64,000 nt of DNA. Source: Sinohyriopsis cumingii. Lineage: Eukaryota > Mollusca > Bivalvia > Unionida > Unionidae. The stretch is from positions 134,163,079 to 134,227,078 of the forward strand of contig CM068829.1 in the NCBI GenBank assembly GCA_028554795.2, in the 5' to 3' direction. A program made the translations under genes and the position numbers. Positions within the stretch are counted from its first letter, which is position 1. Every line of letters begins with the position of its first letter. Positions 396 to 56,274 of this stretch are shown in pieces. Below the pieces are notes generated by a model. That model had not been told where the DNA came from. It saw only the letters and a program-made list of their open reading frames with translations, and made no database searches.

Positions 396-3140
<2,745 letters not shown>

Positions 3141-5779: not shown

Positions 5780-6386
5780 TTGTTCCCTCAAATTAATATT
5801 TCGTTCCCTCAAAAGCATAATGCGTTCCCTCAAATTAACATTTCGTTCCCTCAAATTCCTAATTCGTTCGCACAAATTATTATTTTGTTTCCTCAAATTA
5901 ATAATTTGTTCCCTCAAGTTAGCATTTGGTTCCAACAAAATAATAATTCGTTCCCTCAAATTGATATTACGTTCCCTCTAGTTAATATTTCGTTCCCTCA
6001 GAATAATAATTCGTTCCCTCAAATTAACATTTCGTTTCCTCAAATTGCTAATTCGTTCGCACAAGTTATTATTTTGTTCCCTTAAGTTATTATTCGTTCC
6101 CTCAAATTAATAATTTGTTACTTCAAATTAGCATTTCGTTCCTTCAAAATATTAATTCGTTCCCTCAGATTGATATTTCGTTCCTTCAAAATATTAATTC
6201 GTTCCCTCAGATTGATATTTCGTTCCCTCAGGATGATAGTTCGTTCCCTCAAATTAACATTTCGTTCCCTCAAATTGCTAATTCATTCGCACAAGTTATT
6301 ATTTTTTTCCCTCAAGATAATGATTTGTTCCCTCAAAATAAGAATTCGTTTCATCAAGTTAACAATTCGTTCCCTCAAAACCTCTA
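5780..6386. repeat. 21-bp minisatellite, about 29 units
   Basis: The unit is close to attaacatttcgttccctca plus a terminal a. The second half (CGTTCCCTCAA) is conserved and the first half varies. A variant with CGTTCGCACAA recurs at intervals, suggesting a higher-order period. Because 21 bp is seven codons, every frame stays open: Phe-Pro-Gln heptads on plus, Leu-Arg-Glu-Arg heptads on minus. I treat these ORFs as artefacts of the period. The same repeat precedes the minus-strand transposon copy. Confidence 0.9.
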
Positions 6387-6442
6387 GTAGCTTAACAATG
6401 TGTTCCATCGGTATACATTGTGTACTTGATTATTGCATTACA

Positions 6443-7269
6443 ATGGCGGATGCTGGCGTCAGAAATGAGCTTATTAGGTTCTACTTCAAACTAGGACTTC
6501 TTTATAAAGACATCATCACTGTTCTTTCAGTTCAACATGGGATTACCATCAGTGAACGTCATCTAAGACGCATACTTTCAAGGCATAAAGTGTACAGCGA
6601 TGTAGCAAATGTCGTATTATTTATATCCAATGAAATCAATTGTTCAGGTCAGTTACATGGATATCGATGGATGCATGCAAAATGTGTGGCTAATGGCTTA
6701 AAAGTGAGAAAAGAAGACGTGCGACTTATTCTATCCGCGTTGGATCCTAATGGGTGCCAGGCTAGAAGAGCACGACGTATCAATAGACGGGAATATTTTG
6801 CCAAAGGACCAAATTGTATCTGGCACATTGATTCGTACGATAAGTTGAAGCCATGTGGATTCTGTATAAATGGATGTATCGACGGATATTCGAGAAATAT
6901 TGTATGGCTTTATGTGTATCATAATTCTAGCGATCCAAGAATCATAGGTGGTTATTTTATAAGTACTTTGGAAAATTAGGTGGAGTACCCACTCTCGTGA
7001 GAGGCGACCTTGGAACTGAAAATTGTTACATCAAGAGTTTCCAGCGTTTTCTGAAGAGAAACAGGCAAAATGAACACGTTAATGAAAATGCATTCTTAGA
7101 AGGTGCTAGTACCCATAACCAAAGGATCGGGTGTTGGTGGGGACATTTTCGAAAACAATGTGCAGAATTCTGGATTGATCTATTTCAAAGTATTCGAAAT
7201 GATGGTCACTTTGGTGGAGACATTCTGGACAAAAGCATTCTACAGTTTTTCTTCATGGGAATGATTCAG
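6443..7269 (+). pseudogene. Integrase-core transposase exon 1, copy 1 (frameshifted)
   Basis: Start is ATG GCG GAT at 6443, just after the minisatellite. An N-terminal helix-rich region with RHLRRIL (HTH-like) precedes an rve-type core: Asp in WHIDSYD, Asp in RGDLGTEN, then NQRI-x-CWWG. Against the copy at 25516-26358 it shows three lesions: a 15-bp in-frame deletion after the RRI of the HTH, a 1-nt deletion near 6967 that shifts the frame, and GAG to GGG at 7129-7131, changing the presumed catalytic Glu to Gly. The exon ends ...ATGATTCAG before GT at 7270. It cannot encode an active enzyme. Confidence 0.8.
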
Positions 7270-25190: not shown

Positions 25191-25515
25191 CATCCCATAA
25201 GCTCTTCTGGTCTATGAACAGTACAGCTACAAAACTTTTTAAAATCTGTAAATTGCTACAATGGCTTGGAAATCTAATTGTGTCATTTACATAATAATAT
25301 AAAAAGAAAAGATGCCTACTAAATTTTATTCATGAACCTCAAGTGACCTTTTAAGTAAATGTGCTAATACTGTCTGGTCAAAAATGCCTTTGTTTGAAAT
25401 GAATCTAGTGAATGTTTAAAAGGTTTTAAAATAAGGTCACACTCACTGGAACCTAATCCGGTCTTGGCATCAAATCAAATTATTTAAATGTCAGAAAAGA
25501 TAATTAGGTTTATAC

Positions 25516-26358
25516 CTGAATCATTCCCATGAAGAAAAACTGTAGAATGCTTTTGTCCAAAATGTCTCCACCAAAGTGACCATCATTTCGAATATGTTGA
25601 AATAGATCAATCCAGAATTCTGCACATTGTTTTCGAAAATGTCCCCACCAACACTCGATCCTTTGGTTATAGGTACTAGCACCTTCTAAGAATGCATTTT
25701 CATTAACGTATCCATTTTGCCTGTTTCTCCTCAGAAAACTCTGGAAACTCTTGATGTAACAATTTTCAGTTCCAAGGTCGCCTCTTACGAGATTGGGTAC
25801 TCCACCTAATTTTCCAACAGTACTTATAAAATAACTACCTATGATTCTTGGATAGCTGGAATTATGATACACATAAAGCCATACAATATTTCTTGAATAT
25901 CCATCGATACATCCATTTATACAGAATCCACATGGCTTCAACTTATCGTACGAATCAATGTGCCAGATATAATTTGGTCCTTTGGCAAAATATTCCCGTC
26001 TATTAATACGTCGTGCTCTTCTAGCCTGACACCCATTAGGATACAACGTGGATAGAATGAGTTGCACGTCTTCTTTTCTCACTTTTAAGCCATTAGCCAC
26101 ACATTTTGCACGCATCCATCGATATCCATGTAATTGACCTGAACGATTGATTTCATTGGATATAAAGAATATGACATTTTCTACATCGCTGTACTCTTTA
26201 TGCCTTGAAAGACCTCTAAATTTTAATATGCGTCTTAGATGACGTTCACTGATGGTAATCCCATGTTGAACTGAAAGAACAGTGATGATGTCTTTATAAA
26301 GAAGTCCTAGTTTGAAGTAGAACCTAATAAGCTCAATTCTGACGCCAGCATCCGCCGT
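25516..26358 (-). pseudogene. Integrase-core transposase exon 1, copy 2 (open frame, start codon lost)
   Basis: 281 codons are open on the minus strand, from the position of the copy-1 start to a CAG/GTATA donor at 25516. The start codon is ACG instead of ATG (26356-26358). The full triad is present: Asp at about 25956 (WHIDSYD), Asp in RGDLGTEN and Glu in RIECWW at 25654-25656, the Glu that copy 1 has lost. It keeps the five codons missing from copy 1. Three bases before the ACG sits the edge of a MITE, so its leader and possibly its start were disrupted. An upstream alternative start or spliced leader cannot be excluded. Confidence 0.7.
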
Positions 26359-26363
26359 TGTAA

Positions 26364-26663
26364 GGTCTCACTGGACAGTTTATCTGGTGAATTTTCATCC
26401 GACAATGACCTATTACAGAAAAATGAGAATAATTTTACACTGAAGATACAAATAAAAACAAACTAATGATTTTTGTAGAAAGCATACATGTGAGTTTTTG
26501 ACTGCAGTAATCAGGTTAATTCCTGATGCACCTAGTGGGTTTTATACTGAATATTTTTTTCATCACCCCTCAACCATCTAGATTTTTAGATATTTACCCT
26601 ATTTCCAAGCCTAACTCAAAGTAAATCTAAACCACATTATAGATTTAGCTTATGTGTGAGACC
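26364..26663. mobile_element. 300-bp PIF/Harbinger-like MITE
   Basis: It starts GGTCTCAC and ends GTGAGACC, flanked by TAA on both sides (26361-26363, 26664-26666). The related sequence at 28860-28890 has the uninterrupted site (CCATTGTAATGCAATAATC), as does the plus-strand copy at 6430-6450. The insertion and 3-bp target duplication are therefore directly shown. TAA-type duplications and GG-initial ends fit PIF/Harbinger. Only about 8 bp of the ends are perfectly inverted. Confidence 0.85.
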
Positions 26664-40308: not shown

Positions 40309-40314
40309 AGTGAA
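40309..40314. repeat. Target-site duplication, left (AGTGAA)
   Basis: AGTGAA directly precedes the left inverted repeat and recurs at 54180-54185 after the right one. Six base pairs is the hallmark length for Polinton/Maverick integrases. One base at the left edge is ambiguous because the inner base may be A in both. Confidence 0.8.
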
Positions 40315-40462
40315 GCAGCAGACGGGGCAAACAGACCACTTGTCTGAAACCTAATCTGCTTAAAATATAAGCTTCTTCTGAAATAAAAAAAATAAGGTCA
40401 CTACGTACCTGACCGAGAGTTGTGTTACATACCGGAGGTCCCAGCCCCCTCTGCTGCTATCA
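40315..40462. repeat. Left terminal inverted repeat
   Basis: It matches the reverse complement of 54031-54179 with about a dozen differences. Its own two ends are also inverted to each other: it starts GCAGCAGACGGGGC and ends with the complement of GCAGCAGAGGGGG. Confidence 0.95.
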
Positions 40463-40484
40463 ATTAAAAATTATCGTATTAATA

Positions 40485-41684
40485 ATGCCACCAGCTAAGG
40501 AATCACACACTGCTAGATTAGCTCGAGAAAGATTAGAAGCAATAAAGAAATTTCTTCCTGTTAGAAATTCATTTAGAGAAAAACTACGAGAACAACAACA
40601 ATCACAAGTTGAGTACGAAGAAGTCACTAAAAAGTTATTTAAACCCGTCACTACAGCTACTGAAAAAGCTGCAGCGGCTGCTGAAAAAAAAACTATATGG
40701 GGAGATATTGAGGAGGATGATAAGGAGAGGAAAAAAGGTATTTTTCTAGTATTAAAACAAACCGCTGAGCAAACTGAAAAAACAGCGGCGAGAACTAAGA
40801 AAACAAAAAAGATTTTACGAAAACTTCCAACTGATATAGCTGCAGCTCAGCCTCAACCCGTCGATGAAGAAATACTTGAAAGTACTGGTAAAGTTCGTAC
40901 TGAATTTGCTGACGGGAAAAAAGAACTTGCATCTGAACCAATGGAAGAAAATATTGGACTGATTACAAAATTTAGGGAGGGTTTTGTCAAAGATATTAGA
41001 AATACTAAAAGTGAAAAATTACCTGAAAAAATCTTAATTAGTATTTTTAACAAATCTGGTATCTTAAAACCCGGTTTTGAAAATGTAAAAGATGATAAAC
41101 GTATTAAATGGATATATCGCATATATAAAAACAAAAAAAAAAAACAGGCCAGAGATGATGATTTAGAATACAGAAGTCTTGATATAAAAGTTAAAAGACT
41201 TCTGAGAGATACAGTGGAAAAAATAGAACAACAACGATCTTCTTCACCTCAACAAATATTGATGCCAGAATCTGAAAGTCTTAAAGAGCGACAAGAAAAG
41301 GCAAGAGCAATAAGGATACAGAAAGATAAAGAGAGAGAAGAATTAAGAAAACAAATGGAGGATGAAGATCTCGAATATGAAAGAGCTAAACAAAGAAGAA
41401 AATCGCTGTCTTCACCAGGTAAGGAAAAAGATCTTGATGATGATCCTCCTGGCGCTACTGGAAGCGGTTTGGGAAGTGGCCTTATTACTTGTCCTAACAG
41501 TGTTCTTTCTGACGTAGAACGACTAGAAATACTAATTGGAGGAAAACGAGCTGGGAATAATTCTTCAGAAATTGTTAATGAAATATCTGATATTTGTCGA
41601 AGATTATTTCAATGCGGTATTATAGATCGCAGTATTTATCGTTCTCTTATTGATGAAATTGCCGATGATTATCACAGCGACTAA
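40485..41684 (+). CDS. Charged coiled-coil protein, function unknown (399 aa)
   Basis: Start chosen at ATG 40485 (MPPAKE) because an upstream in-frame ATG at 40422 lies inside the terminal repeat. The protein is rich in Lys, Glu, Arg and Ala with long predicted helices (about 10-130 and 250-340), an Ala-rich patch near 65, and a Gly-rich hinge (SGLGSGL) before a compact C-terminus ending in acidic residues. It is the first gene of the virion block, so a scaffold, core or minor-capsid role is plausible, but I recognise no family. Open and undamaged. Confidence 0.7.
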   Translation: MPPAKESHTARLARERLEAIKKFLPVRNSFREKLREQQQSQVEYEEVTKKLFKPVTTATEKAAAAAEKKTIWGDIEEDDKERKKGIFLVLKQTAEQTEKTAARTKKTKKILRKLPTDIAAAQPQPVDEEILESTGKVRTEFADGKKELASEPMEENIGLITKFREGFVKDIRNTKSEKLPEKILISIFNKSGILKPGFENVKDDKRIKWIYRIYKNKKKKQARDDDLEYRSLDIKVKRLLRDTVEKIEQQRSSSPQQILMPESESLKERQEKARAIRIQKDKEREELRKQMEDEDLEYERAKQRRKSLSSPGKEKDLDDDPPGATGSGLGSGLITCPNSVLSDVERLEILIGGKRAGNNSSEIVNEISDICRRLFQCGIIDRSIYRSLIDEIADDYHSD

Positions 41685-41709
41685 ACAATTAATTAATCAG
41701 TATATAAAA

Positions 41710-42135
41710 ATGATTATACACACTGCTCAACGTAGACCGATCCTGGTCAGGGTAGTAAACTCACGACTGTCAAATTACAAAATAATTTACGGAGATGGAC
41801 TTGGTGATGTTGTTCAGGGTCTATTTAGAAGGATGGCTCCAAAAGCAATACCAATTGCAAAACAATTAGGAATGAAGGCTACTGAGGCTGTTCGTGATAA
41901 AATTCCTGGCGCTATTGGTAATCTTGCCAGTAAAGCGTTCTCGACTGTCAAGGACAGACTTGCTCGATTAGTACGAAGAAAACAGCAGCAACCAATAAAA
42001 CTGGCCAGCACTGAAGTTATGCCAGCAAATGTCAGTAAAATAATAAATCAAGCCGCAAATAAAAAACTAGCGGAATTATCTGAAGAAGCAGAAAGAAATA
42101 TAACAGCAAATTTAATAGCGGGAAGTGGTCTTTAG
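41710..42135 (+). CDS. Adenovirus pX/pVI-like basic minor virion protein (141 aa)
   Basis: Start at 41710 follows TATATAAAA directly. A Gly-rich motif (YGDGLGD, residues 27-33) precedes an amphipathic helix (about 34-55), then a basic stretch ending RLVRRKQQQ (86-94). Small Gly-rich, basic, amphipathic proteins of this layout are the pX/pVI-like proteins of adenoviruses and Polinton-type viruses, which condense DNA or disrupt membranes. Lies between the coiled-coil gene and the capsid gene, 25 bp after the former. The assignment is by composition and context. Confidence 0.6.
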   Translation: MIIHTAQRRPILVRVVNSRLSNYKIIYGDGLGDVVQGLFRRMAPKAIPIAKQLGMKATEAVRDKIPGAIGNLASKAFSTVKDRLARLVRRKQQQPIKLASTEVMPANVSKIINQAANKKLAELSEEAERNITANLIAGSGL

Positions 42136-42168
42136 ATCGCCATTTGGAAAATTGATAATTATAATAAA

Positions 42169-44025
42169 ATGTTCAAGCGGATATCCGACCCAGCATTTGA
42201 CATGGATGCACCGGTCCTCAAAGATGAATCAGTACGTGATTATCAATTTTATTCCTATGACGCAAAACAACCAAATCAGCGTGGGAGAATCGAATTACAG
42301 GTTCAGGATACAAGTAGATATTTCTTACCCGCTGAGGCGTTTATTGAAGTAGAAGGTGAACTTGTAACGAATGTTGCGGCTAATACGCCATATGGTGCCA
42401 ATTTGCGAGTTGGTTTTGTCAATAATGGGATTATGGCATTGTTTAGTAGCGCCACATACATGATTGATGGAAGAAATATTGAATCAATTCAGAATGATGT
42501 TGATGTTGCTACAACAATAATTGGTCTAGCGAGATATTCTGATGATTACACAAGATCAGCTGGTCCAACAATGATGTTTGCCAAGGATATTAATGACAAC
42601 GCTGATCATGTTCAATATACTAAAATACGGACACCACAAGATACTGCAGATGATCCACAACCGGTTGATTTTGAACACGCATCCAGACCAGGTGCTGCTT
42701 TTGATATTATATGAAGTGTTAATACGACTTACAACTTGGGATTTGCAACACGCCAATCGATGTTAAAAGGAAACGATAGAAATTTCTCATGTGCAATTCC
42801 ATTATCTCACATCTTTGGATTTTGCAGAAAAGTTAGAAAGGTCATCTTTGGAGCTAAACACACAGTTGTGCTCATAAGAAAAACTAATGATAATGATGCA
42901 ATCTGGCGAGGTGCTGGTGTTGCTGATGCTGGTAAAGTATATATAACGAAGCTTTCATTGTGGATGCCAGTAATGATTCCAACTATTACTGAAGAACAAA
43001 CATTACTCTCTTTTACGGATCAAGGTGCTGCTTTTGATATTGTAGGAAGTGTTAATACGACTTACAACTTGGGATTTGCAACACGCCAATCGATGTTAAA
43101 AGGAAATGATAGAAATTTCTCATGTGCATTTCCATTATCTCACATCTTTGGATTTTGCAGAAATGTTAGAAAGGTCATCTTTGGGGCTAAACACACAGTT
43201 GTGCTCGTAAGAAAAACTGATGATAATGACGCAATATGGCGAGGTGCTGGTGTTGCTGATGCTGGTAAAGTAAATATAACGAAGCTTTCATTGTGGATGC
43301 CAGTAATGATTCCAACTATTACTGAAGAACAAAAATTGCTCTCTTTTACGGATCAAGGTGGTAAATCTTTGCTATCATGGTTAACAGTAATCACAGATGC
43401 TACTCAAAGTTCTATTATTGGTTTATTTACATGGAATATAGCATCACAGCAAGGTGTGTCTGAGCCGCGTCATATTTTTATTGCTCTTCAGGATAACAAC
43501 CGGATCGGCAATCAACTACGTTCACATATGATATTTGACAAACTTGGAGTTAATGAAGTTTCCTTTCGGATAAATGGGCACCAGGAACCATCAGAAGATA
43601 TATTATTAAATTTTGGTCAAAATCACGTAGCGCGTGCATATCATCGTTTGATGTCATTTATGGGACGTGATCAAAACGTGGATACTGGGCTGCAAATATC
43701 ACAGTTAGATTTTACAAAGCTGTATCCGATTTATTACTTTTCACTGGAGCATCTTGATTTATCCAAACTTAATCTCTCTGCGGGTGCGGTTAAAGATTCA
43801 ATTAAAACAGACGGTATTTTTCCACTTCTCGTGGCTATTCCAGTATTAATTTCGGCAGCGGCACCTGCCGTAGCAAAAGCAGCCGCATTAGGTGCTGTTG
43901 GATCCGCTGCTGGAATGGCTCTAAAGAAAGCAACATGGCGAGGATTAGAAAAAAGAGGGACCGGATTAAGATTACCGGGGTCTCGATGGGGAAAAGGTCT
44001 GAGGCTTCCAGGATTTCTTCGTTAA
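42169..44025 (+). pseudogene. Double-jelly-roll major capsid protein with internal duplication and one stop
   Basis: The frame runs 42169-44025 with a single TGA at 42712-42714. Features typical of the double-jelly-roll-like capsid family seen in invertebrate genomes are an early PAEAFIEVEGELV strand, NNGIMALFSSATYMIDG, GLARYSDDYTRS and SHIFGFC...VIFGAKHTVVL. A 333-bp segment is duplicated head to tail (42691-43023, 43024-43356): 111 codons, in frame. The stop lies in the first unit, where GGA of the second unit is TGA. Without the extra unit the protein would be about 507 aa. A hydrophobic, Ala-rich tail (GIFPLLVAIPVL) followed by basic Gly-Leu-Arg-Leu-Pro-Gly repeats ends the frame and resembles a pVI/pX peptide. 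Confidence 0.8.
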
Positions 44026-44458
44026 TTCCAGCATCAAATTTTGATTTACTTGATTCCGCCAAACAACTAAAAATAAAAACTTCAGAGGTGTTTTTATGCG
44101 AGATCAATTACCAGACCAGCCAAACAGCGCTGAAACAGGTATTATTAATCTCGATGAACGTTCTGGACCTGGTACTCATTGGACCGCATACGCAATTGAT
44201 CCACGTGGAATCGTTTATTTTGATTCGTACGGGTTAGCTCCACCTCGTGAGTTTATCAAGTATGTCGCACCACTTCACGCATCGGTTTGGTATTCAACGC
44301 TACCAACACAAACAATGACGGATCCGCCAATATGCGGCAGTGAAGCAATTAATGTACTCGACGCTATATCAAAATCATCCAAACCGCCACATAAAGTCGT
44401 GCATGATTATACAAGTAACCGCTTCGTTTTAAACAACAGGTCTCATTATAATGGTTGA
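43986..44458 (+). pseudogene. Adenain-like cysteine protease (frameshifted)
   Basis: The 120-residue frame from 44096 has the adenain-type triad and oxyanion Gln: His28 in GTHWTAY, Asp43 in FDSYG, Gln72 in PTQ and Cys80 in ICG. In adenoviruses this enzyme matures capsid precursors. The expected N-terminal part (LLDSAKQLKIK) is in another frame, 43986-44090; the frames meet at a T run (44090-44094), where a small indel broke the gene. It overlaps the end of the capsid frame and, by 8 bp, the fibre gene. Translation from the ATG at 44096 alone would keep the triad but lose the N-terminus. Confidence 0.75.
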
Positions 44459-45473
44459 TATTTACGGAAGATCTTCTTCTACCAGTAAGAAAAAAAAATC
44501 CGACATTGATCTGTCGAAGTACGCGACTAAAGATGAACTCGCTGATATTATGAACCTGGCTGGTGTTGATCCAGATGAGGTTGTTATTTTTCAGGACCAA
44601 TACGGAAAACTAAACACGAGTAACATCAAATGGAATGATATAGTTCGACGAGTACTCGGTGCGGTCACGGATAACATTCCTGTGTTTACTGACGGCGGTA
44701 GAATCAGGGATTCAAGTATATCATTTAAAACCATCAGAGATGAAATTACAAAAAGCGTTGCTAATCGTGTAAGAAGCACCGGCGACACAAAGACAGGTGA
44801 ACTCAGCATGAACGGAAACAGGATAGTAGTGTTAAGAGATTCAACATCCGACGAAGATGTCGCGACAAAAAAATACGTCGACGTCAACTACAATACCGTT
44901 GACGGTAAATTATCCACGTTGCGGGCAGAGTATGATGTGCACGTGGGCGCTTTTGGAAAATTTCGAGGAAATTTTCAAAAAACCGATGAATCCATAGATA
45001 AATTCTTCGGCACTCCGCACGCCGTTGACATAAAACTCGTTGATAGCAAAAGTAACCTACACGCAACTAAAAAAACATTAGAAGATGTCGTGCGTGGAAT
45101 TCCTGATATCGTTAACAAAATTAGTCTGATTAAAATTCCGGCCGGAATAACTCCCGGGCATATTACCAATATCGTATACACAGTATCATCTGGATTCTCA
45201 ACATGGTCACAGCAAAATAAAACTATCAAATATACGGCAACGGTCACTGGCGTGTACAGGTTGTCTGTGTTCAGTGCTGCAAAATTCGAGATTTTTACAA
45301 CGTACCCATGGCGTCATTCCACCGACAGGTTTTCTGGAGTTGTGTCTATAGTATTAAACAGCGGAAACGAAGAAGTATTTATTCTGGAAGCAGCTGATAA
45401 AAAATTAACCGCAGCATCTTTCTGGTGGTGTCTAGAATTTGTAGCTGAAACACCTCAATTATTTACTGCATAA
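44451..45473 (+). CDS. Fibre-like protein with phage-type shaft motif (340 aa)
   Basis: ATG at 44451 follows CATTATA. A Lys/Ser-rich N-terminus (residues 1-25) precedes an unclassified region. Residues 111-144 hold a tail-fibre shaft motif: Thr-Gly-x-Leu-x-Met-x-Gly-x-x-Ile, then Asp-x-Asp-x-Ala-Thr-Lys-Lys-Tyr-Val-Asp. This is widespread in bacteriophage fibres and in fibre proteins of Polinton-type viruses. Residues about 230-340 are beta-rich and Trp/Phe-rich, suggesting a C-terminal knob. Likely role: vertex fibre and attachment. Undamaged; receptor unknown. Confidence 0.7.
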   Translation: MVDIYGRSSSTSKKKKSDIDLSKYATKDELADIMNLAGVDPDEVVIFQDQYGKLNTSNIKWNDIVRRVLGAVTDNIPVFTDGGRIRDSSISFKTIRDEITKSVANRVRSTGDTKTGELSMNGNRIVVLRDSTSDEDVATKKYVDVNYNTVDGKLSTLRAEYDVHVGAFGKFRGNFQKTDESIDKFFGTPHAVDIKLVDSKSNLHATKKTLEDVVRGIPDIVNKISLIKIPAGITPGHITNIVYTVSSGFSTWSQQNKTIKYTATVTGVYRLSVFSAAKFEIFTTYPWRHSTDRFSGVVSIVLNSGNEEVFILEAADKKLTAASFWWCLEFVAETPQLFTA

Positions 45474-45479
45474 AATATA

Positions 45480-46028
45480 ATGAATACCTCAGGCGTGTAC
45501 AGGTACAATCAAGCACGTGAATGGCAAACGAACTTAAAAAATCGAGTCGAACAATATACGGTAAAAATAAATAAATATCGACGACGACTAGTTATCGTTG
45601 ACGTAATCGTTTATTCAGTATCCGCTGCTGTTGTGTCCACAGGCGTATTATTATCAACGATAACAATGATGGCGCCAGTAGCCGTAACAATCTGTATTTC
45701 AGCTACAACATCAATTGCAGGTGTGTTAAATATCATTACAAAAAAGACAAATACCTGCACGAATAAAAAATTATCCTATTACATAATAAAGTTGCACACG
45801 GTGACGGTAGCATACTCGAAGTTATCTTCGTTGTTATCGACGGGTCTTAATGATGGAATTATATCTGATTTTGAGTTTACAGAAATGATTAGCGTATACT
45901 ACTATGCTGATTTTAAAGGTGTAAATATTAATAATGACATCACTAGAGCTACTTCAGCAGATCGTGACAAACACAACTCCGCACAAGACCACGATGATCT
46001 CGGTAAGTTCGATTCATCCTCAATTTAA
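45480..46028 (+). CDS. Two-helix membrane protein (182 aa)
   Basis: Starts 6 bp after the fibre stop, behind AAATATA. A basic coiled N-terminus (1-36) is followed by hydrophobic segments at about 37-58 and 62-87 in a hairpin, then a cytosolic-looking helical tail with ISDFEF. Layout resembles small membrane proteins regularly found next to fibre genes in related elements. Role unknown: virion membrane-active protein or holin/SLATT-like module are possible. Confidence 0.65.
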   Translation: MNTSGVYRYNQAREWQTNLKNRVEQYTVKINKYRRRLVIVDVIVYSVSAAVVSTGVLLSTITMMAPVAVTICISATTSIAGVLNIITKKTNTCTNKKLSYYIIKLHTVTVAYSKLSSLLSTGLNDGIISDFEFTEMISVYYYADFKGVNINNDITRATSADRDKHNSAQDHDDLGKFDSSSI

Positions 46029-46284
46029 CGTCAGTTTTCCAACTGCGATTCCAGTAAAAGAAATTGCACTATCGCAATTACGAGTGTATTACAGTTGGCC
46101 AAATATCAGATCGAAATCATTTAATGGAACACCGGAAAATAATTCACTCGTATTTGCTAATAAAAATAAAGATGATGGAACACCTGACTAGATTGTTGTT
46201 GGAATACCGACTGGTAGTTATGAAATTACAGAGATCAATGAAGAATTTCAACGCAGAATGAAATCAATAATTATTATAATCTGA
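45934..46284 (+). pseudogene. Minor capsid (vertex/penton-like) gene, truncated
   Basis: The frame overlaps the end of the membrane-protein gene. It encodes a beta-rich start (FNVSFP, IALSQLRVYYSWPNI) and, after a TAG at 46189-46191, continues in the same frame with IPTGSYEITEINEEFQRRM to TGA at 46282-46284. This pattern, a strand pair, a short loop rich in Asn, then a Gly-Ser-Tyr turn, opens minor-capsid or vertex proteins of related elements, which are several hundred residues long. Here the rest is missing and AT-rich sequence follows. Function by analogy only. Confidence 0.5.
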
Positions 46285-47242
46285 AATATTTTATTCTGAA
46301 ATAATTATTTTAATCTGAAATATTTTATTTATTCAGAAATTGATGAGGTGCTCTGCAATAATTATTATATTCAGAACTATTTTTTATTCTGATAATTCTA
46401 TTTTTATATTAACAAAACAAAATAAACTTCTAGTTAAGGACAGCACAACCCAGAACTCGTAGGTACGAGTTCAGTGGGCACACGAAACAACAACCCCCTA
46501 TGAGAGCCCCAAACCTGTCAAACAACGGTCTAGAGGCCCAAGAGGGTGCGTTTGGTGAAGATAATCCTCATATAAACTCGTAGCTTGCCACCGGAATCTA
46601 CTAAGTTTAGAGGATACACAGAACATATAATCTTAATTAAGGACAGCACATTCCTCATATAAACTCGTAGCTTGCCACCGCAATCTACTAAGTTTAGAGG
46701 ATACACAGAACATATAATCTTAATTAAACCCCATAACTTGCTAGATTGCCACCGCATTCTAGCACGTTTAGAGGCGATAGGACCCCAAAATCACTTCCCC
46801 TTATATATAGTGCCAAAAACTATATGTGGGTAGTTGGTCAGAAAGGTTCAATTTGCTACCGCAGAGGTCAGTATATATAGTGGAGGAACCCGGAAAAACC
46901 CATAGTTGGGGAATTTTTCTGGGTTTTTTTTCCGCATCATCAAAATGATATGTATATATCTCTGCAACGTACGCATAACTGAGTTATTTTTTCTGTTTGT
47001 AAGTTAATATCCTTGTGCAAGTAATAATTACGACGTAGATGGTTAAAATACATCGTGAATTTGAAATAGACGTATTACAGTAAAATTCCCGCTTACGATC
47101 GTAAACACGGTCAAAGGGAAGTAGCTCAATTATATGGTTTGCTCAACGGAGTTATCTCCCTTCTTCAGGTAAGTAGTATAATTCGAGGTAATTCAATTAC
47201 AGGTATAATTTTACGATTTAAATATAAAATAATTACTTATAT
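46285..47242. repeat. Central non-coding region with 87-bp tandem repeats
   Basis: 46285-46440 repeats TGAAATATTTTATT-like AT blocks. 46566-46652 and 46653-46739 are two 87-bp units (CTCATATAAACTCGTAGC, GGATACACAGAACATATAA) with a third, partial, diverged unit to about 46780. TATA-like sites CTTATATATAG (46799) and GTATATATAGTGG (46871) follow. It separates the virion block from the replication block, so it may contain promoters or an origin. The repeat probably replaced the rest of the minor-capsid gene. Confidence 0.6.
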
Positions 47243-47515
47243 ATGAGTGAAGAAATAATCTACGCTGACTGGGCCGCAATAACACAAAAAGAAAAAGTAT
47301 TTATCGTTGATTGTATTGCTGGCGAAATTAACAGATCCTCACTTCACCTGGAATACGTGAAATTAATGCTGAATAAACTAACAGTGACAGAATAAAAGGT
47401 TGTACCGGCAGAAGATTTAACAGCGACTGTTATACCATCTACGGAAGATTGGGATTCGGAGGCTACTCATTCAACATTCACGCCAGAACCCGGTCATTAC
47501 AACACAAAACACTGA
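47243..47515 (+). pseudogene. Small unknown ORF with internal stop
   Basis: ATG at 47243 follows TTATAT. Fifty codons (MSEEIIYADWAAITQKEKVF start) end at TAA 47393-47395; the same frame stays open for 39 more codons to TGA 47513-47515. The composition on both sides is protein-like and acidic, so this may have been a 90-residue protein. No family recognised. Confidence 0.4.
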
Positions 47516-47592
47516 TGGCTAAATTAGTTGCAATAATTTCAACTGCGCTTCCAACTTCTTCCCGCCTACACTGACTTCACGATTTATCTCCA

Positions 47593-48084
47593 TCATTGAT
47601 ATTGGAAGATGATTCTTTGATCATATTTGCTAGAGAAGGCGGATTTGATTATATTTTCTGAGACTCTTTGCACTGAACTTGCGTTAATATCAAAATATTT
47701 TCCAGCCGCGTTCATTGACTGAAATATCACTTTCTTGCCGGTCTCTACATTAACAGATTTAATCTCTCTTTTTCCGATACTCTTGAACCGACCAGTCCCT
47801 CCTCGTGCAGAGTTCTCGCTTTGCTTAATAGCCTGAAGTTTGTGCATTGAATTGTTCTGAGAATCTCCATCAATATGATCAATCACAAAACCATCTTTAA
47901 TCACCCCAAAGAAATATACGAATACGAAACTATGACAAAGATAAGTTTTCTTCTCACCAGCAAATATTAAATAACCAGTATTATTAATAACACCAACTGG
48001 TCTTTTCAACCGACAGTTTCTGATTACACCATTACGATTCTTGATGATAGGATGCTTCACAAACTCGTTCACATTTTGCTCCAT
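47593..48084 (-). CDS. HNH endonuclease with NUMOD-like tail (163 aa)
   Basis: ATG at 48084 is preceded directly by TTATATATAA. The HNH motif is seen as VIDHIDGDSQNN, then KLQAIKQSENSARG (about residues 68-95), the layout of HNH_3 homing-type nucleases. The C-terminus has a NUMOD1-like helix-turn-helix (FQSMNAAGKYFDI, about 120-132). Such genes act as free-standing homing nucleases in phages and large viruses. It abuts the zinc-finger gene head to tail. Undamaged. Confidence 0.8.
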   Translation of the reverse strand: MEQNVNEFVKHPIIKNRNGVIRNCRLKRPVGVINNTGYLIFAGEKKTYLCHSFVFVYFFGVIKDGFVIDHIDGDSQNNSMHKLQAIKQSENSARGGTGRFKSIGKREIKSVNVETGKKVIFQSMNAAGKYFDINASSVQRVSENIIKSAFSSKYDQRIIFQYQ

Positions 48085-48393
48085 TTATATATAAGTGTAT
48101 TTGTTTAAATCATAATTTGTCTGAAAACTTAGATAGTCCTCTACGGATTTTATGGATCTGTCACTGTCTTTATTTTTTTTTATCATAATATCTTTTAAGT
48201 CCTCTGTATCGCTTACCACCACAGCGAGCGCATAATTGGGTTTTCCTCGCTCTCCAACACCACATCGCAGGCACGGTATTGGTCCTAAACTACCATTGCG
48301 AACAGATTGTGAATGCTGTCCGCAGAATTCGTTTTTGCAGGATTTATTACATCGAGTCAATGAACCGATCATCAAAGATTTGCACTGGGACAT
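48085..48393 (-). CDS. Small cysteine-rich zinc-finger-like protein (102 aa)
   Basis: ATG at 48393 follows ATTATATATA. Cysteines are spaced CKS, CNKSCKNEFCGQHS and CLRCG in the first 45 residues, consistent with one or two zinc sites; the C-terminal half is polar. Short Cys-rich proteins of this kind occur in large DNA viruses; function unknown. It ends one base before the HNH start, so the two may be co-transcribed. Confidence 0.6.
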   Translation of the reverse strand: MSQCKSLMIGSLTRCNKSCKNEFCGQHSQSVRNGSLGPIPCLRCGVGERGKPNYALAVVVSDTEDLKDIMIKKNKDSDRSIKSVEDYLSFQTNYDLNKYTYI

Positions 48394-48436
48394 TATATAT
48401 AATATTTTTCATTTAAATACTTGTTTGAAATATAAT

Positions 48437-51400
48437 ATGAGCGAGTTCGATACATTATCCCAAATCAAGCCCTTTAGCGTAGATAAATTTAATCTCGACA
48501 GAATATCTCCCGACCTACCGATGCGAGATCTGGTTGATCAGAAAAATAAAAGTTTGATTAATAAAATTCACGGCGCCAAGAAAGAATTTCACACAGATGG
48601 TGCATCTCATGTATGGTCAACGTTCAAGATTATACGCGACGATGTCATCGACGCTACGATGAATGACGAACGAGCAGCAACTATCATTAACTACATTGAT
48701 AATCATAAATATCTTTTCAGAATAAAATTTGTCGTGCTAACAGAGACAGATGATTGGATTATCCGTGACAAATATGATCCTGTGCACAAGGGTGAAAAAA
48801 CTGTCGTACTAAGTAAAGATTCTAAACCAGGTCTACTGACTGGCTTTGACAAAGCGTATTATGATCGAGCGTATCCTGTAACAGCAGTTATTTATGGAAT
48901 CTATGTGATAAATGAAAAACTCAGTGTTGATAAACTGGCGCCGATGAAATTTTCAAAAATAAACTGTGTGGCTGAACGAGTAATAGAACATTTTACAGTT
49001 TCTACTTGTGGAAACGGCTTAACGGATAAAAGACGTAAAATAATAAACGAGTGGGGCGAAACAGTTAAAGATACCATGGCGTCAATCAAAGATGTGCCTG
49101 AACTAGGGAAAAAGCTAAAGTTTCCAATAACCGTAGCGACAATAACAGGAGAAATATTGTTTGAATCAAAATATAAATCAAAAGGTGCTTCGATCGAAAT
49201 TATTAATCATAACGCACACGCATGGACGAGCGCAGTAACAGTGTTTCCACGAAATCGAACTCTTAAAATTTACCCCCCCCCCCTTCCCCGATAATTCTGG
49301 GGGAGGCATGTTTGATTTTATTAACGAAATAAGTAAAAACGATCCTGTATCAGTACGGTTATTTCAGAGTTCATACGAGGAAGGAAAATTTGATCAGTTT
49401 GTACGACCTAATGGCGTTATTTATAGAGAAGGTTCTCTCCACGAAAAAATAAAAAATCTTGCACTACAATATACTGATGATACTGACGAACTATTGAGCA
49501 ACTGTTTTACTGTTCCGTCAGTTGCGGCTCATTTTGCCAGAAAGAAAAATTCGTGGAAGCCAACTAGATTTGATTTTCTCAATGACATAGTATCCAGTTG
49601 TGTCGAATACGGACACGGTGGATTATGGAATACTAAATACAATCACAGAGATGTTATTTCTGTTGATATGGTCGCGTGTTATCTGGGAAGTTTTCTCCGG
49701 TACGGAGATTGTTCTGTGTATTTTGAGCGATTCGGTCATCCGACGCACGAGATGACACGAGTATCAATAAATGGACCATTACCGGATTTTGATCTGACTG
49801 GATTCGCTCGTATCGAGTCATTCGAGTTTGCTATGGGACTTCATCCAATTTGTTATATTTGGTTTGGAAAACATTTTTCAAAAAAAATGTGGGCACCAAT
49901 AGTACTGTTACGGTTCATGCTTGATTGTGCGATGTTAACACGGTTGATTGTAAGTGAAGCAATTATATCATATCGGAAACAAACCGAAGTTTGGTTACCA
50001 CAACAAAAACAGTATTCTGATGATGAAAACCCGGATAAAACAGATTACGAGAATAAAATTACGAAAGATATCGGCAGAAAAATGATTGGCAAGTTCACTC
50101 AAGGAGGATCATACGATCATAAACGACATTGTGCAAGATAGATTATGGACGATGCTGAGTTAGATTTTATAATCGCTGATACAACGAAGAAAAACACGTT
50201 TATAAGTCGAGAGATAGCTTTCTTGTCAAATGGAACTAAACTAGGTACAATCGTGAGTTACATGGACGGTGAGTCACCTCAGTATACTCATTTAAGATCA
50301 TCGATGCTCGCATATGTTTCGATAAATCTATTATCGATGATGAATAAAGTTTCTAAGTTTGCTCTCAGAGTTGCCACGGACTCGTTTTATATCAATAAAA
50401 AACATCATGATTGTTAGAACAACTACATATCGATACTTATACACAGTGGTGTTCGTGGAGAATAAAAAAAGAAAACATAATCGATTATTCCGAATCCGCT
50501 GATGTTGCGATCAAAGATAAATATTGTAAAAAATATCAAACATTAAAGCTATCTTCTGCACCATCGGTGTGCGATCCAATAACCAGAAACAAAACGGTTT
50601 ATCTGAACGGACCAGGAGGTTCTGGTAAGACGACCCGAGCAATTGAATTATTTCAGAACTCAGATATGATCGTTTTAACTCCTACACATAGACTCGCGCG
50701 AGAGATGAAACAACGAGGGGTACAATCGTGAACTTATCACAGCTTCTTTCGATGGAAGGGTGACGCATGGACTTCTTCGAGGATGGGTGAGAAATATATT
50801 CCTCGGATCATCATTTGGGATGAAATATGTACAGTGCCGTTAGAAACATTAAAAACGTTTCTTGATTGGCTATTAGCAAAAAATACTGCTGTGATAATGT
50901 GTGGCGATCACGGTCAACCACCACCTTTTGTTGGACCATCTCCACATGATTGGCTGAAAGATTTTGTTGACCACGCTGAAGAAGTGACTGATGATCATAG
51001 AGCACTTGATCCAGAATTAAGGGAGTTTAAAAAATTAATCAGACTACAACCGAATAAAATTCAATGTGAAGTAATGCGCGAGGTGATTTCAGAAACACCC
51101 ATGAACGACTTTCTACAAACATGGCGACCAAATGATCTGATAGTTGCAAGTAGAAAGATAGTCAGAGACACACTTCAGCAGCGGTTGTTTCAGTTACATA
51201 AAGAAAATTTTCCGACGTTGCCAGTTCCGTTATGTTATCGACCAGCTGATACACGGCGGCAAAATATTGACATTGATATACCAGGACAGACCGAGAAACA
51301 GAATTTAGTGTTGGATGATATTGTTGCAGTTGATATCAATGTTGTTGAAGATGCACTAAAAACAAATAAATCCCCGTGGACTCTAGGATACGCGATGACG

Positions 51401-51838
51401 ATTCATTCATCTCAAGGATTAACTGTTACTGATACAGTTGTTTGGATCGTCGATGATCGTATCGAGTGGTCAAACTTAGTTTATCTCGCAGTATCTAGAG
51501 TCAATAGAATATCTCAACTACGAAGGATTATCATGAAAGAGTTAGTGATCAATGATGATGATGCTGACGGTGACATAATAAGAAAACAATTAGCTGGTTA
51601 TAAACAGTGTGATAAAAAAAATAAACGTGACTTTTATCTTGACGTTGAATTTATTAATACGCTGAAACAGAAGCAGAATAATCACTGTACGAATTGCAAT
51701 TGTGTAATGTTATGGCGGTATCTGAAAAATGATCCAAGACAATTTACCGTAGATAGGAAAGATAACCATCTTGGCCATACACGAGAAATCACGATTTTGA
51801 CCGGTCTTGAGTGTAATCGACGTAGGGGTGCTAGTTAA
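48437..51838 (+). pseudogene. Family-B DNA polymerase, SF1 helicase and HNH domain in one reading path (broken)
   Basis: Start taken at ATG 48437 after GAAATATAAT; frames further upstream overlap the opposite-strand gene. Pieces: 48437-49294 (N-terminal region of unknown fold); frameshift in the C run at 49271-49281; 49308-50141 with polymerase motif A (DMVACYLGSF, Asp at 49665) and IGKFTQGG, a motif-B-like site; TAG 50139-50141; 50145-50417 with YTHLRSSMLAY and motif C ATDSFYI; frameshift near 50411; 50411-50731 with Walker A GPGGSGKTT; TGA 50729-50731; 50732-51838 with Walker B WDEIC, motif III GDHGQPPP, motifs V/VI (YAMTIHSSQG, AVSRV), and a C-terminal HNH zinc fold (CTNC, DRKDN, GHT, CNRRR). 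About 1,130 codons with four single lesions. No proofreading exonuclease motifs were evident. Confidence 0.75.
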
Positions 51839-52781
51839 GAGATTGCGGTGGTAATTGAGTGTCCTCTGGAATTATCTGTAGTTGTTCACGCACAAATCCA
51901 CGTTGAGGAGCAGTTGAATCTAGTCTATAGATTGCTGGTCTGCCATTGGATCTTGTTACGCTAGGTATCTTGTGTGTCGTAATACTCCAAATCGGATCAG
52001 TCGCTCTTTTTTTACCACCTTCAAGTTCACCTCGTTCATATAAATATCTTACGGTCACATTACCTAATACTAGCTGTGTTGAAAAATCACGTTGTACAGG
52101 TATATTTTTTTGTGTAATTGCGTTAATAGGTTTCATATTGGTCGTTCAAGTAATCTCATTATTTAATATGGCTATCACACTTGGTAATCTTGCAACCCAT
52201 TCGCGAGATCTTTTATCTTGAATGAATTCCTTCACGTATTGATATCCAAATAACCGCTCAGCAAGTGTTCGATTAAATCGTTCAACAACTGCCTGATCAC
52301 GATGAATTGCAGTGTGACCTCGTCTGATTTTGACATTATGTTGCTTCATCAACGATGATACTGGACCAAGAAATTCTTTGCCAGGATCAACTTGTAATAG
52401 TTGTGGCCATCGTAATGGTCCTCGTTGATAAATTCGTTCAAACGCATCGGCTACTTCAGATGATGTTTTCGTTGATAATGGTTCCGCATCTTTGTATCTA
52501 CTTCCAACATCAACTACAGCTAAAGCGTATTTGTATGTTTTTCTACGTACAGTATCATGTGGTAAAAACAGAATATCTGCTTGATGAACTTCATTAGGAA
52601 CACTAACATCGAAATACGCGTACTGAATTCGTTTCGGTGATGGTAGGTAAATTTGCCATATTGCTTGTTTGGATAACCAATTTTTAGCAGTAGATTGCTT
52701 GATTTTTGCTGCATCAGCGAGTTTGCTAATTGCTGCTTTACCCCTCCAATATCCCCTTGGACTATAATAAATTGATTTCAT
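51831..52781 (-). pseudogene. Polinton-type DDE integrase (one stop)
   Basis: ATG at 52781 follows AATTATAA. An N-terminal HTH-like region (KIKQSTAKNWLSKQ) leads to an rve core with Asp69 (HQADILF), Asp132 (QVDPGKEF) and Glu167 (VVERFNR), spacing D-D-35-E. A single TGA at 52146-52148 interrupts the frame after residue 211; the same frame continues for 104 codons with a chromo/SH3-like C-terminal region (VRYLYERGELEGG, GFVREQL). The 3' ends of this gene and the polymerase overlap tail to tail by 8 bp. The core catalytic domain precedes the stop. Confidence 0.88.
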
Positions 52782-52787
52782 TTATAA

Positions 52788-53153
52788 TTAATTACCAGCC
52801 CCTAATACGAGTTTACCTTTCATCGCAGATTTTACTAACCAATTAGCTAATGATTCTCTGATATTTTTATTTTTTACGGAATCTAGCGAATGAATCAATT
52901 TCACATCTGCAATATGCCTATGTTGTAGATCTTTATTTTTATAAGCCACATCATGAACGTGACATGCTTTATCAATATCATTTATGGGATACTCACCTGG
53001 TTTTGGTTGATCCTGATTGTCAAGCTTGATATCAAGTCGAGTACCAGGACCACAATAATTATATCCTGGTAGATGTTTTTCTCCAGGATATTTAGCCCAT
53101 GGAGTTCCTGGGAACTTTGACATTAATTTAGCAATATCACCGCCATCTTTCAT
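52788..53153 (-). CDS. Phospholipase A2 domain protein, parvovirus-VP1-like (121 aa)
   Basis: A Ca-binding loop (YNYCGPGT, residues 31-38) and catalytic His67-Asp68 in DKACHVHDVAY identify the short PLA2 domain found in parvovirus VP1 and some Polinton-type viruses, where it helps particles leave endosomes. The length fits a stand-alone domain with little else. Start taken at ATG 53153 (a second Met is residue 11). It lies 6 bp upstream of the integrase and 3 bp after the zinc-ribbon gene, so an operon-like order is suggested. Undamaged. Confidence 0.8.
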   Translation of the reverse strand: MKDGGDIAKLMSKFPGTPWAKYPGEKHLPGYNYCGPGTRLDIKLDNQDQPKPGEYPINDIDKACHVHDVAYKNKDLQHRHIADVKLIHSLDSVKNKNIRESLANWLVKSAMKGKLVLGAGN

Positions 53154-53156
53154 GGG

Positions 53157-53288
53157 TTAAAACGAAAACTTTTTTCTGTTACATACTGCACATCTTCCAC
53201 CGTATGCTATTCTCGCATTTTTTGTTGTAACCGTAGATAGATCATTAGTTGGAGTCTTAACTTTGCAACGTAAACAATATAGATTCAT
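53157..53288 (-). CDS. Zinc-ribbon microprotein, DUF5679-like (43 aa)
   Basis: A short ORF (MNLYCLRCKVKT start) with CLRC (residues 5-8) and CAVC (33-36), ending Lys-Phe-Ser-Phe. Two CxxC knuckles about 25 residues apart form a zinc ribbon of the type common in phages and viruses. ATG 53288 is followed at the other end by the PLA2 gene. Undamaged. DNA-binding or regulatory role is a guess. Confidence 0.65.
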   Translation of the reverse strand: MNLYCLRCKVKTPTNDLSTVTTKNARIAYGGRCAVCNRKKFSF

Positions 53289-53311
53289 ATCATATATATA
53301 TAAATATAATT
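53289..53311. promoter_or_regulatory. Bidirectional TATA-like intergenic spacer
   Basis: ATATATATATAAATATAAT lies between the divergent zinc-ribbon and ATPase genes and reads as TATA on both strands. Confidence 0.45.
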
Positions 53312-53968
53312 GATTTCTCAGCGGCACGAAAACAAGCGCCAGTTAAACACCATCCTGCGTTGCCAAATTCGATCAGAATGATAATAATAGGTCCATCTGG
53401 ATCGGGTAAGACGCAATTATTACTTAATCGGATAATGAGATGGTTAAAGTGGGATAAATTGTATTTGGTAGCACCATCCGCTGATGATCAATGATGTTAT
53501 GATGCATTAAAGATTTCAATGAAAACGCAAGATTGCTGGACGAAGATAAGGATGTTATAGAGTTTATAACCGATATCGATGAAGCGCCGAGCGTTGATGT
53601 TTTAGATGGATTTATTAATAATTAATTTAGTTGTATACGATGATGTGATGCTGGACAAACAATCAAACCCTGCCAGAATTTTTTCACGTGGAAGACATAA
53701 AATTACTGATGTGATTTATGTTACTCAACGATACACACAAATACCAAAAGTGATCAGAGATAACTGTAATATTCTAATTATGTTTAATGGAGTTGATAAA
53801 CACACGTTGCGAAATATTCATCAAACTTGGTGTAGCGGTGACATGGATATAATTAAATTCAGAAATTTCTTTTCACATGCACAATCAACCCAGCACGGGT
53901 TTATAACAATAAATTTACATGATCCTAGAACAAGATATCGTATTGGACTTGATAAAATTTTTGGATAA
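53312..53968 (+). pseudogene. FtsK/HerA (A32)-type genome packaging ATPase (broken)
   Basis: Walker A GPSGSGKTQ at 53390-53416 and Walker B LVVYDD near 53622-53639 are followed by DVIYVTQRYTQIPKVIRDNC, as in A32-like packaging ATPases. No ATG precedes the Walker A region; the only in-frame Met is immediately before it (53378). TGA at 53492-53494, a shift into another frame for about 53508-53625 (LLDEDKDVIEF) and a shift back at 53625 break it. About 60 bp of the 3' end are repeated directly at 53979-54029. Confidence 0.75.
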
Positions 53969-54030
53969 ATTAATTATAACAATAAATTTACATGATCCTA
54001 GAACAGACTTGATAAAATTTTTGGATAAAC

Positions 54031-54179
54031 TGATAGCAGCAGAGGGGGCGGGGACCTCCGGTATGTAAACACAACTCTCGGTCAGGTACGTAGTGACCTC
54101 ATTTTTTTATTGCAGAAGAAGCTTATATTTTAAGCAAATTAGGTTGCAGACAAGTGGTCTGTTCGCCCCCTCTGCTACT
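54031..54179. repeat. Right terminal inverted repeat
   Basis: Reverse complement of 40315-40462 with scattered differences. Like the left repeat, its two ends are inverted to each other (GCAGCAGAGGGGG at 54036, CCCCCTCTGCTAC at 54166). Confidence 0.95.
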
Positions 54180-54185
54180 AGTGAA
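54180..54185. repeat. Target-site duplication, right (AGTGAA)
   Basis: Matches 40309-40314. Confidence 0.8.
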
Positions 54186-54565
54186 ATGAGATGCTACAGA
54201 ACCATCCTTGGCATCTCTTACATGGACCACATCACAAATGAAGAAGTGCGTAACACCATCGGGTGCGAAGTAGGCCAATATGAGGACCTCCTCACCACCG
54301 TCAAAAAGAGAAAGCTGAAATGGTATGGCCATGTCACTAGAGCCAACAGTCTATCCACAACAGTTCTGCAGGGCAGCGTCCAGGGTGGCAGAAGGAGAGG
54401 TAGACAGAGAAAAAAGTGGACTGACAACATCACATAATGGACAAGGAAAAGTTTTGCGGAGACACAGGCATTGGCACATGATCGAGACAAGTGGAGGGAA
54501 CTGGTCAGATGCTCAGCAGCAGTGCCTCAACGACCACACAAGGTCATGAGACTGATGATGATGAT
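54186..54565 (+). pseudogene. LINE ORF2 C-terminus and 3' tail
   Basis: The frame carries the C-terminal block of RTE/jockey-like non-LTR elements: RTILGISY, EEVRNTIG, KLKWYGHVTR, GRRRGRQRKKW. TAA at 54435-54437 interrupts it and the frame then continues (WRELVRC) to a (GAT)n tail at about 54552. The upstream part is absent; the fragment begins at the edge of the Polinton-like element. Confidence 0.75.
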
Positions 54566-56274
54566 GAGTTTGTCCGCTACAAAATGTAGTTCATTTTTCG
54601 TGTGGTTCCCAAACATATGCAAATTGATAGGTTGATTGTTTTCTTTACAATTTTCTATTTTTCTTCACATTTATTAAATCAATATAAGACATACTCCTGA
54701 TTTAAACATGAAATATGGTTTTTATGAAGAAAGTAGTGCACTTCAAACACGGTTAGCTTTTTGTACACTGAACCCGAACTGTCAGGCATTCACGTACTTG
54801 CAAATGAAAATTAGCGTGGAATATAATCTAAACGAAATGACGAGCCAACAGGAGGTAATTACAATATTTTAATATATTGACTGTTCATCTAAGTCATTAT
54901 TCTGCTTCAGTAAACATTTCTAAAGACTATACAATTCTCTCTCTCTCTCTCTCTCTCTCTCCCTTCCTTGCCTCCCTCCATCGGACGGTTTGACTAAACT
55001 TTACCATCCAACAAAGGTCCAGAGACATCGTCGTATGACACAAGCAAAAATCCCAAACGCTCGTGTTTTCATGGATTTTCGCCTTGTATTTTGATAGATT
55101 TTCGTCAGTATCTAGCTGCGATAGTCCAGAGAGAGAGAGATAGAGAGAGGCAACCATTTGGAGATTTTTATATTAAATAATTAATAACCGATTTTGAGAA
55201 CATTATAATATGTTTAAGAAACAACAACAACAAAACATTAAATACTTTTTTTTGGGGGGGGAGGGGCACCAGACAAATACCCCCCCATTTCCAAAGAAAA
55301 GTGAAAATTGTTTTATGTGTAAGTGTATCCTCTAAGTATGTTGCTTGTTTTATTTTTATAAAAAGAATTTTCAATCAAAAATTTAATTATTTTAAATTTT
55401 TGATGGGGTATTTATATTTCCTAGTGTTATCTATAGTGATGTTCCTCCGAGCCAAGTTTCTTTCACCTAGCTCGAATTCGCTCCCCTAGTTCGTGTTTGT
55501 GACCTTTACTAGAGGTCTCCTTAGTCTCGTGTTTGCTATATGTGTATTTCTATGTGTGTGAATGCTATATTAGTTTCCGCGTTGAGACAGCATATGAGTC
55601 AAATTTCCCCCGTTTGCCTTAGTACTAGTTTTAATTTTATTGTTATTATACTTTAGTAATCATTTTTGAAATGGCAACTGAGCGGTGTACTATTTTCAAT
55701 AGAAAGAAAAAAAAAGGCCTAGTGTTTTATGTGCGTGCTTATATGTGTCGCTCATCGCATAATTTTGAAATGAGGCGGGCTGTGCTCGAATGAGGGTCCA
55801 TACTTTATTTATTTGTCGTATTTCACCCGACTCGAGTTTTGGTCCCCTCTGTTATTTCTGTGGCCAAAATTCCAATTTATGTTAGTCAACTATACCGTAC
55901 GGGAGCTGTATAGTTAAGAAAGACAGATAGTTAGAAATAAGCAGAGGTGTTGTGTTTGTTTTTGTGTTTTGCATGTACTAGTTTTCCATATGGTGTATTT
56001 TTCTTAGGCTCTTTTAAGGGCCTTTCCACTTCGCGTGACGCCATGTGATATAGCCCCATTACGTCATTACCTTTTACTTTCCCCATACAGATACCCTGTC
56101 CTTTTGTATATTTAAAGGTAAGGAGAATATTCCCTAAGGATTATTTGATACTTATATATAAACACATGCAAACTAATAAGTATTTAACGATATATTAGCC
56201 ACCTCCAAGGAGATCAAGGTGGGAACGAGGTATTAGCCCGCGTTTGCGTTAGCGCTCGTAATTCTCATGATTGA
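54566..56274. other. Non-coding stretch with (CT)n and (GA)n tracts
   Basis: (CT)n at 54937-54961, (GA)n at 55129-55148, G run at 55253-55261. No gene recognised. 55990-56100 has CGTGACG/TTACGTCAT sites that could be regulatory, without further support. Confidence 0.4.

Follow-up and report, generated by a model that had tools for sequence, protein, structure and literature searches.

A decayed element with a Tlr1-like fused replicase, probably an integrated polinton-like virus, in a mollusc genome

We analysed a stretch of 64,000 nucleotides (the window) that holds a 13,866-bp element with terminal inverted repeats (TIRs), a retroviral-type (rve) integrase gene, a double jelly roll (DJR) capsid gene and a fused replicase gene. 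Our results suggest, with a probability of about 0.84, that this element is a decayed, integrated copy from a Tlr1-type polinton-like virus lineage that multiplied in a mollusc host, most probably one of the unionid mussels. An earlier note, made from the letters of the window alone, had read the element as an endogenous mollusc virus or a transposon derived from one, and the capsid fold, packaging ATPase, integrase, TIRs with their target site duplication (TSD) and unionid relatives support this. Its assignment to the Polinton/Maverick and adintovirus-like elements is not supported, because the replicase has a Tlr1-like order of palm, superfamily 1 (SF1) helicase and HNH, gave no match to DNA_pol_B_2 (searched without a positive control), and the TSD is 5 bp long. 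The data do not establish a canonical Polinton, and the copy is not near-complete as had been claimed: the capsid gene is duplicated, stopped and shortened, the penton-like gene is mostly lost, and the replicase and integrase frames are interrupted.

The replicase carries most of the argument. This protein of about 1170 aa contains a vOTU-like region, a palm of the protein-primed type, a Pif1/RecD-like SF1 helicase and a C-terminal HNH, so that palm and then helicase lie in a single fused protein, as in the Tlr1-like protein-primed family B DNA polymerases with SF1 helicase (pPolB-S1H). By tblastn, the window covers residues 3-1172 of the 1176 of protein P0050, a short gap aside, spread over two frames with two in-frame stops; another copy in the same genome, L019, has one open frame of 790 aa. 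The Asp of motif A is kept in 36/36 relatives of the replicase; in motif C, the first Asp of DTD is replaced by Ala (ATD) in 35 of the 36 and the second is kept in all of them. Within the vOTU-like region, C177 is present in 32/32 and H258 in 34/34 of the members that have a letter there. The C-terminal HNH has conserved Cys/His residues, and the HNH profile matched 14 of the 36 relatives with scores below the cutoff (best E 0.023). Structure comparison showed palm and helicase folds in the replicase.

These features recur in Tlr1 and the polinton-like viruses (PLVs) with a Tlr1-like helicase, for which a palm with the first Asp of DTD replaced, an SF1 helicase, a C-terminal GIY-YIG or HNH, the vOTU Cys/His and no exonuclease are described (PMC11071308). 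Architecture and motifs thus point to putative orthology with the Tlr1 replicases, although Tlr1 itself has GIY-YIG (PMC12721341) where the window element has HNH. The earlier hint that a PolB-helicase-HNH path might mark a distinct lineage was right, and the three belong to one fused protein family. Transpovirons share the Tlr1-like helicase with palm (PMC11071308); unlike them, the window element has capsid and integrase genes. The PLV of Oxyrrhis marina also has an SF1 helicase-pPolB fusion, but with an N-terminal helicase and a complete exonuclease (PMC12721341), whereas here the palm precedes the helicase.

The polymerase appears unlike the exonuclease-bearing PolB that is usual in Polintons. 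Neither the pieces of the window nor copy L019 nor five full-length relatives matched DNA_pol_B_2 at E<=1, and this family did not appear in the 25 shown, out of 27, for the 36 relatives, in both cases without a positive control. No exonuclease signature was seen among the acidic residues of P0050 region 270-400, where only E388 is invariant and D381 is acidic in 29/36; 147 residues separate H261 of the vOTU-like region from D408 of motif A. A scan of viral contigs with the replicase alignment yielded a single helicase, a distant one, from a contig of 126 kb. Of the BFVD matches listed for the replicase, the 40th is a densovirus DNA polymerase; none is named as an adintovirus PolB, which says nothing on its absence.

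The ends of the element are repeated across the genome. Three blocks of the TIR arms (40314-40391/54102-54179, 40386-40426/54068-54108 and 40425-40465/54028-54068) are 92-98% complementary, and at 152 bp the TIRs are long, as in Polintons/Mavericks. Inverted ends of 148 bp, a 6-bp duplication AGTGAA and exact boundaries had been reported before; the ends are real, but their size and start and the TSD needed correction. Because an A precedes GCAGC in 19 of the 20 other copies with the left end read (the remaining one, L029, has a damaged end), the TIR begins AGCAGCAG, the element spans 40314-54179 and the TSD is AGTGA. A 5-bp TSD is exact in 14 of 16 junction pairs, the window counted in (L016 and L022 are inexact), or in 13/15 independent insertions, since L011 and L021 have common flanks; the damaged left end of L029 and the want of a right junction in L012, L020, L023 and L030 kept these copies out of the count. 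A 6-bp TSD was rejected: it is found in 0/16 pairs with the A inside the TIR and in 5/16 with the A counted as target base, near the base-composition expectation. A chance inverted repeat was also rejected, as other genome copies carry the same ends. The rve integrases typically give 6 bp and PLVs 5-6 bp (PMC12220804), so that 5 bp is unusual for Mavericks, which in vertebrates have 6 bp (PMC8097293), yet is known in the wider group.

Between these ends lie the integrase, PolB, ATPase and capsid genes named before and a protease-like gene with a match below the cutoff; the integrase, in a 211-aa piece, is 0.7 bits below the curated PF00665 cutoff, and other copies have longer integrase frames than the window. 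The major capsid protein (MCP) has 48 homologues, one of which (P0004) gave a good DJR model with a fold match. The capsid gene of the window is broken by an in-frame stop and lacks its 3' end; read against copies L042 and L043, about 335 bp of it are duplicated in tandem and about 400 bp are lost. An assembly artefact as the origin of the duplication was considered but not adopted. The packaging ATPase frame is 234 aa long in 7 of the 20 other right-hand pieces, with a PF04665 match of E 2.7e-11 in copy L019, and copy L043 has a longer protease frame (PF00770, E 0.041). The penton-like protein has 12 homologues, from two unionid species among others, and no Pfam match; the 477-aa frame of L043, and with it the 88-aa remnant in the window, is a candidate penton gene. 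By its position directly before the capsid gene, the small basic protein is one that we take to be a possible minor capsid or membrane-active protein. An rve integrase, MCP, penton and ATPase are present in Tlr (PMC4028283). PDB sequence searches gave E 0.35 or worse for the MCP and PolB pieces and none better than 0.057 for the ATPase, and no relative was confirmed when viral contigs were scanned with the helicase piece or with the MCP, as piece and as alignment.

From these parts, a linear DNA with inverted ends would be copied by one large protein made of an N-terminal region, the vOTU-like part, palm, SF1 helicase and HNH. The vOTU-like part may act as a self-cleaving protease, and the palm polymerase would start replication from a protein primer. 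The integrase would insert the element with a 5-bp stagger. Assembly and filling of particles would fall to the DJR capsid, penton-like protein, protease and ATPase, and the phospholipase A2 (PLA2) might aid entry.

The element is present in many copies. The left end was searched against the host genome of 2.9 Gb (1138 contigs), as the earlier note had proposed; of 523 first-look candidates, mainly on contigs C1-C19, all 40 scored places were at least 92% identical. The 20 best-scoring of the 40 listed places were sampled, the window's own left end excluded and one place passed over as the far end of an already sampled copy, and 8 kb further was read at each. The right TIR lies 14,078-17,811 bp from the left end in 17/20 (split in L016, partial in L023) and is absent from the stretch read for L012, L020 and L030. 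The right part of the window was matched in 18 of the 20 pieces, with main blocks 88.6-93.6% identical; L013 is without the 50.8-52.3 kb region and L020 matches this part only partially. The losses of the window copy lie to the left of it.

The paired TIRs of the window diverge by 0.062 (Kimura two-parameter distance, K2P) and those of 15 of the 16 other copies by 0.000-0.053, eight of the comparisons using only about 100 bp; the split right TIR of L016 gives 0.378. The window copy thus looks older than the sampled copies, a sample picked by similarity to its left end. A search with the integrase gave 43,022 first-look candidates, of which the best 150, the window's own included, were scored: all are at least 89% identical, and, counted by eye, 132 are without a stop and 18 have one. 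Many of these share an identical score and a 325-aa frame, which suggests a younger, near-identical subfamily. Three same-scoring 325-aa frames at G000:C7 113530603, 113555982 and 113581402, spaced by about 25.4 kb, suggest a tandem array of a relative that is longer and younger. Copies L021 (G000:C3 10024922, minus strand) and L011 (10151553, plus strand) lie inverted about 127 kb apart with common flanks, probably as an inverted duplication carrying the element. At L048, positions 1939-3117, beside a long interspersed nuclear element (LINE) copy, match the window integrase at 84% and the replicase at 72%, which identifies by similarity a more diverged relative.

Copies differ most often at third codon positions. 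Mismatches at the three positions number 809/538/1489 in the replicase (third largest in 18/18), 122/132/266 in the ATPase (17/17) and 229/175/342 in the integrase (16/18), counts that include the window and the shared-flank pair L011/L021. This excess indicates that the copies descend from masters that appear to have been under protein-level selection before later decay.

A replicase tree of 44 database proteins and copy L019, rooted at the midpoint, groups the host copy, at a local support of 1.0, with the two sequences of Sinanodonta and six from metagenomes. Outside this clade lie Elysia, one EukProt protein, mycorrhizal fungi and contigs of metagenome-assembled genomes (MAGs) of lucinid symbionts, whose source may be the bivalve or other organisms associated with it. 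Sinanodonta and Potamilus belong to the Unionidae, and the closest named relatives of the element are in unionid mussels. The relatives from arbuscular mycorrhizal fungi (Cetraspora, Diversispora, Racocetra and Gigaspora) are P0090, P0091, P0095, P0126-P0128 and P0130.

Several points weigh against a Tlr1-type assignment. The tree holds no Tlr1, transpoviron or Polinton reference beside the window replicase, and the codon-position counts have no non-coding control. The best BFVD match to the replicase is long, with low TM-scores (0.20/0.23). The vOTU fold was unmatched in structure searches, of which the PDB search barely covers the replicase before residue 273, and the structure alignment with phi29 begins at residue 54 of the phi29 chain, so that a degenerate exonuclease remnant may be present. 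Profile support for the penton, protease and fibre calls is weak, and the TSD at the window itself is 5 bp only. Tlr1 itself is reported to be without the protease seen here (PMC4028283). Other differences from Tlr1 and the PLVs with a Tlr1-like helicase are the apparent animal host and the stand-alone PLA2.

The protease-like gene and PLA2 together with a Tlr1-like replicase would also fit a chimera, in which a Maverick-type virion and integration module gained the replicase by recombination; exchange of modules has been reported for animal viruses (PMC11071296). This possibility, to which we give clearly less weight, overlaps the Tlr1-type reading and differs from it solely in the source of the virion genes. 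MCP and replicase relatives probably lie on the same contigs (P0022 and P0059 on one of 37,906 bp, P0014 and P0087 on one of 164,761,221 bp), so that the pairing is not peculiar to the window copy, although this would fit an old chimera. High copy number and the decayed capsid gene of the window might instead suggest a capsid-less transposon with virus relics, moved by host-genome transposition only; this is unlikely, given full-length capsid homologues with a good DJR model in public data and packaging ATPase copies that differ mostly at third codon positions. Least probable is a canonical Polinton/Maverick (Polintoviricetes) or adintovirus with a merely diverged PolB: TIRs, rve integrase, DJR capsid, adenain-like protease (weak here) and A32-like ATPase are shared with Polintons, the end motif resembles those of vertebrate Mavericks (PMC8097293), Mavericks are annotated across mollusc genomes (PMC10294476), an adintovirus capsid-type protein ranks fourth among the BFVD matches of the MCP model, and adintoviruses share the rve integrase, adenovirus-like virion gene set, animal host and OTU-like replicase region, but the fused SF1 helicase and HNH (the sole difference seen from adintoviruses, no sequence of which was in the comparison) in place of the usual pPolB, the lack of a DNA_pol_B_2 match (searched without a positive control) and of a conserved set of exonuclease carboxylates, and the 5-bp TSD all argue against it.

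Integrating DJR-capsid viruses reported from animals are usually Polintons/Mavericks and adintoviruses. The Tlr1-type group is otherwise described, in the portions of the literature consulted, from protists, environmental sequence and giant-virus parasites. A large MCP comparison places metazoan capsids, cnidarians excepted, in a single Maverick-Polinton cluster, with animals outside its genome survey (PMC10120064), and marine-mollusc Mavericks are mentioned elsewhere (PMC8097293). Our literature search found no Tlr1-type element reported in a mollusc, subscription papers lying outside it, so that absence from print is not shown. We lean, with limited confidence, towards the view that unionid mussels have their own clade of Tlr1-type PLVs, an animal-infecting branch that lost the exonuclease, uses a 5-bp stagger and forms many copies, including near-identical younger subfamilies active recently or still. 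The apparent host range of the Tlr1-type replicase would widen with its presence in a mollusc and with its relatives in slugs and mycorrhizal fungi. It has been proposed that helicase gain compensates for exonuclease loss (PMC11071308), and a multi-copy animal family with datable insertions makes this idea testable.

Features of the element in the window (E, expectation value; ORF, open reading frame).
Feature	Position	Strand	Basis
Whole element, decayed copy	40314..54179		TIR arms; left end set against 20 other copies
Left TIR, 152 bp, begins AGCAGCAG	40314..40465	+	arm comparison and other copies; K2P to right TIR 0.062
Right TIR	54028..54179	-	arm comparison and other copies
Left TSD, AGTGA, 5 bp	40309..40313	+	junction-pair comparison
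Right TSD, AGTGA, 5 bp	54180..54184	+	junction-pair comparison
Charged left-end ORF, 420 aa	40422..41684	+	no family match
Small basic protein just upstream of capsid gene	41650..42135	+	family matches below curated cutoffs only
MCP gene (DJR), broken	42160..43767	+	PF21738 E 1.5e-27; tblastn
Adenain-like cysteine protease	44054..44458	+	PF00770 E 0.0054, below cutoff
Fibre-like protein	44433..45473	+	PF03906 E 9e-4, below cutoff; phrog tail/tail-fibre, best E 7.5e-4
Small protein with hydrophobic stretches	45474..46028	+	kept in copies L042/L043
Penton-like gene, N-terminal remnant, 88 aa	45925..46191	+	477 aa in copy L043
Poorly matched stretch, about 1.8 kb shorter than copy L043	46270..47064		comparison with other copies
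Free-standing HNH endonuclease, NUMOD1-like part	47593..48084	-	PF13392 E 1.2e-9; phrog_99 E 1.7e-14
Cysteine-rich (zinc-ribbon-like) ORF	48085..48408	-	no significant family
Replicase gene: vOTU-like region, palm, SF1 helicase, HNH	48446..51835	+	tblastn with P0050
rve integrase, frame split by in-frame stop	51831..52781	-	PF00665 E 1.7e-7
Stand-alone PLA2-like protein	52788..53156	-	PF08398 E 4e-13
A32/FtsK-like packaging ATPase, C-terminal half open, 120 aa	53606..53968	+	PF04665 E 4.6e-5

The free-standing HNH and cysteine-rich ORFs (47593-48408, minus strand) lie just upstream of the replicase on the opposite strand and are mostly present in L013 and L023 too; the NUMOD1 match of the former (E 0.0027) is below the cutoff. 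Rfam gave 0 matches and the tRNA count was 0. The right flank (window 54182-54567) consists of a LINE-like repeat of high copy number (1460 first-look candidates), shortened at its 5' end and ending in a tail of the GAT type; it begins 2 bp past the element end, and the left flank is not its matching half. An empty-site search with joined flanks, as proposed in the earlier note, gave 0/40 scored matches across the junction and is uninformative either way: because the right flank is a high-copy repeat and the left flank matches only itself, no empty site is demonstrable. Elsewhere in the window, two ORFs with an rva_4 integrase core (PF24764), at 6086-6979 on the plus strand (E 4.5e-10) and 25510-26367 on the minus strand (E 4.8e-23), represent, by their profile matches, another type of integrase-bearing element.

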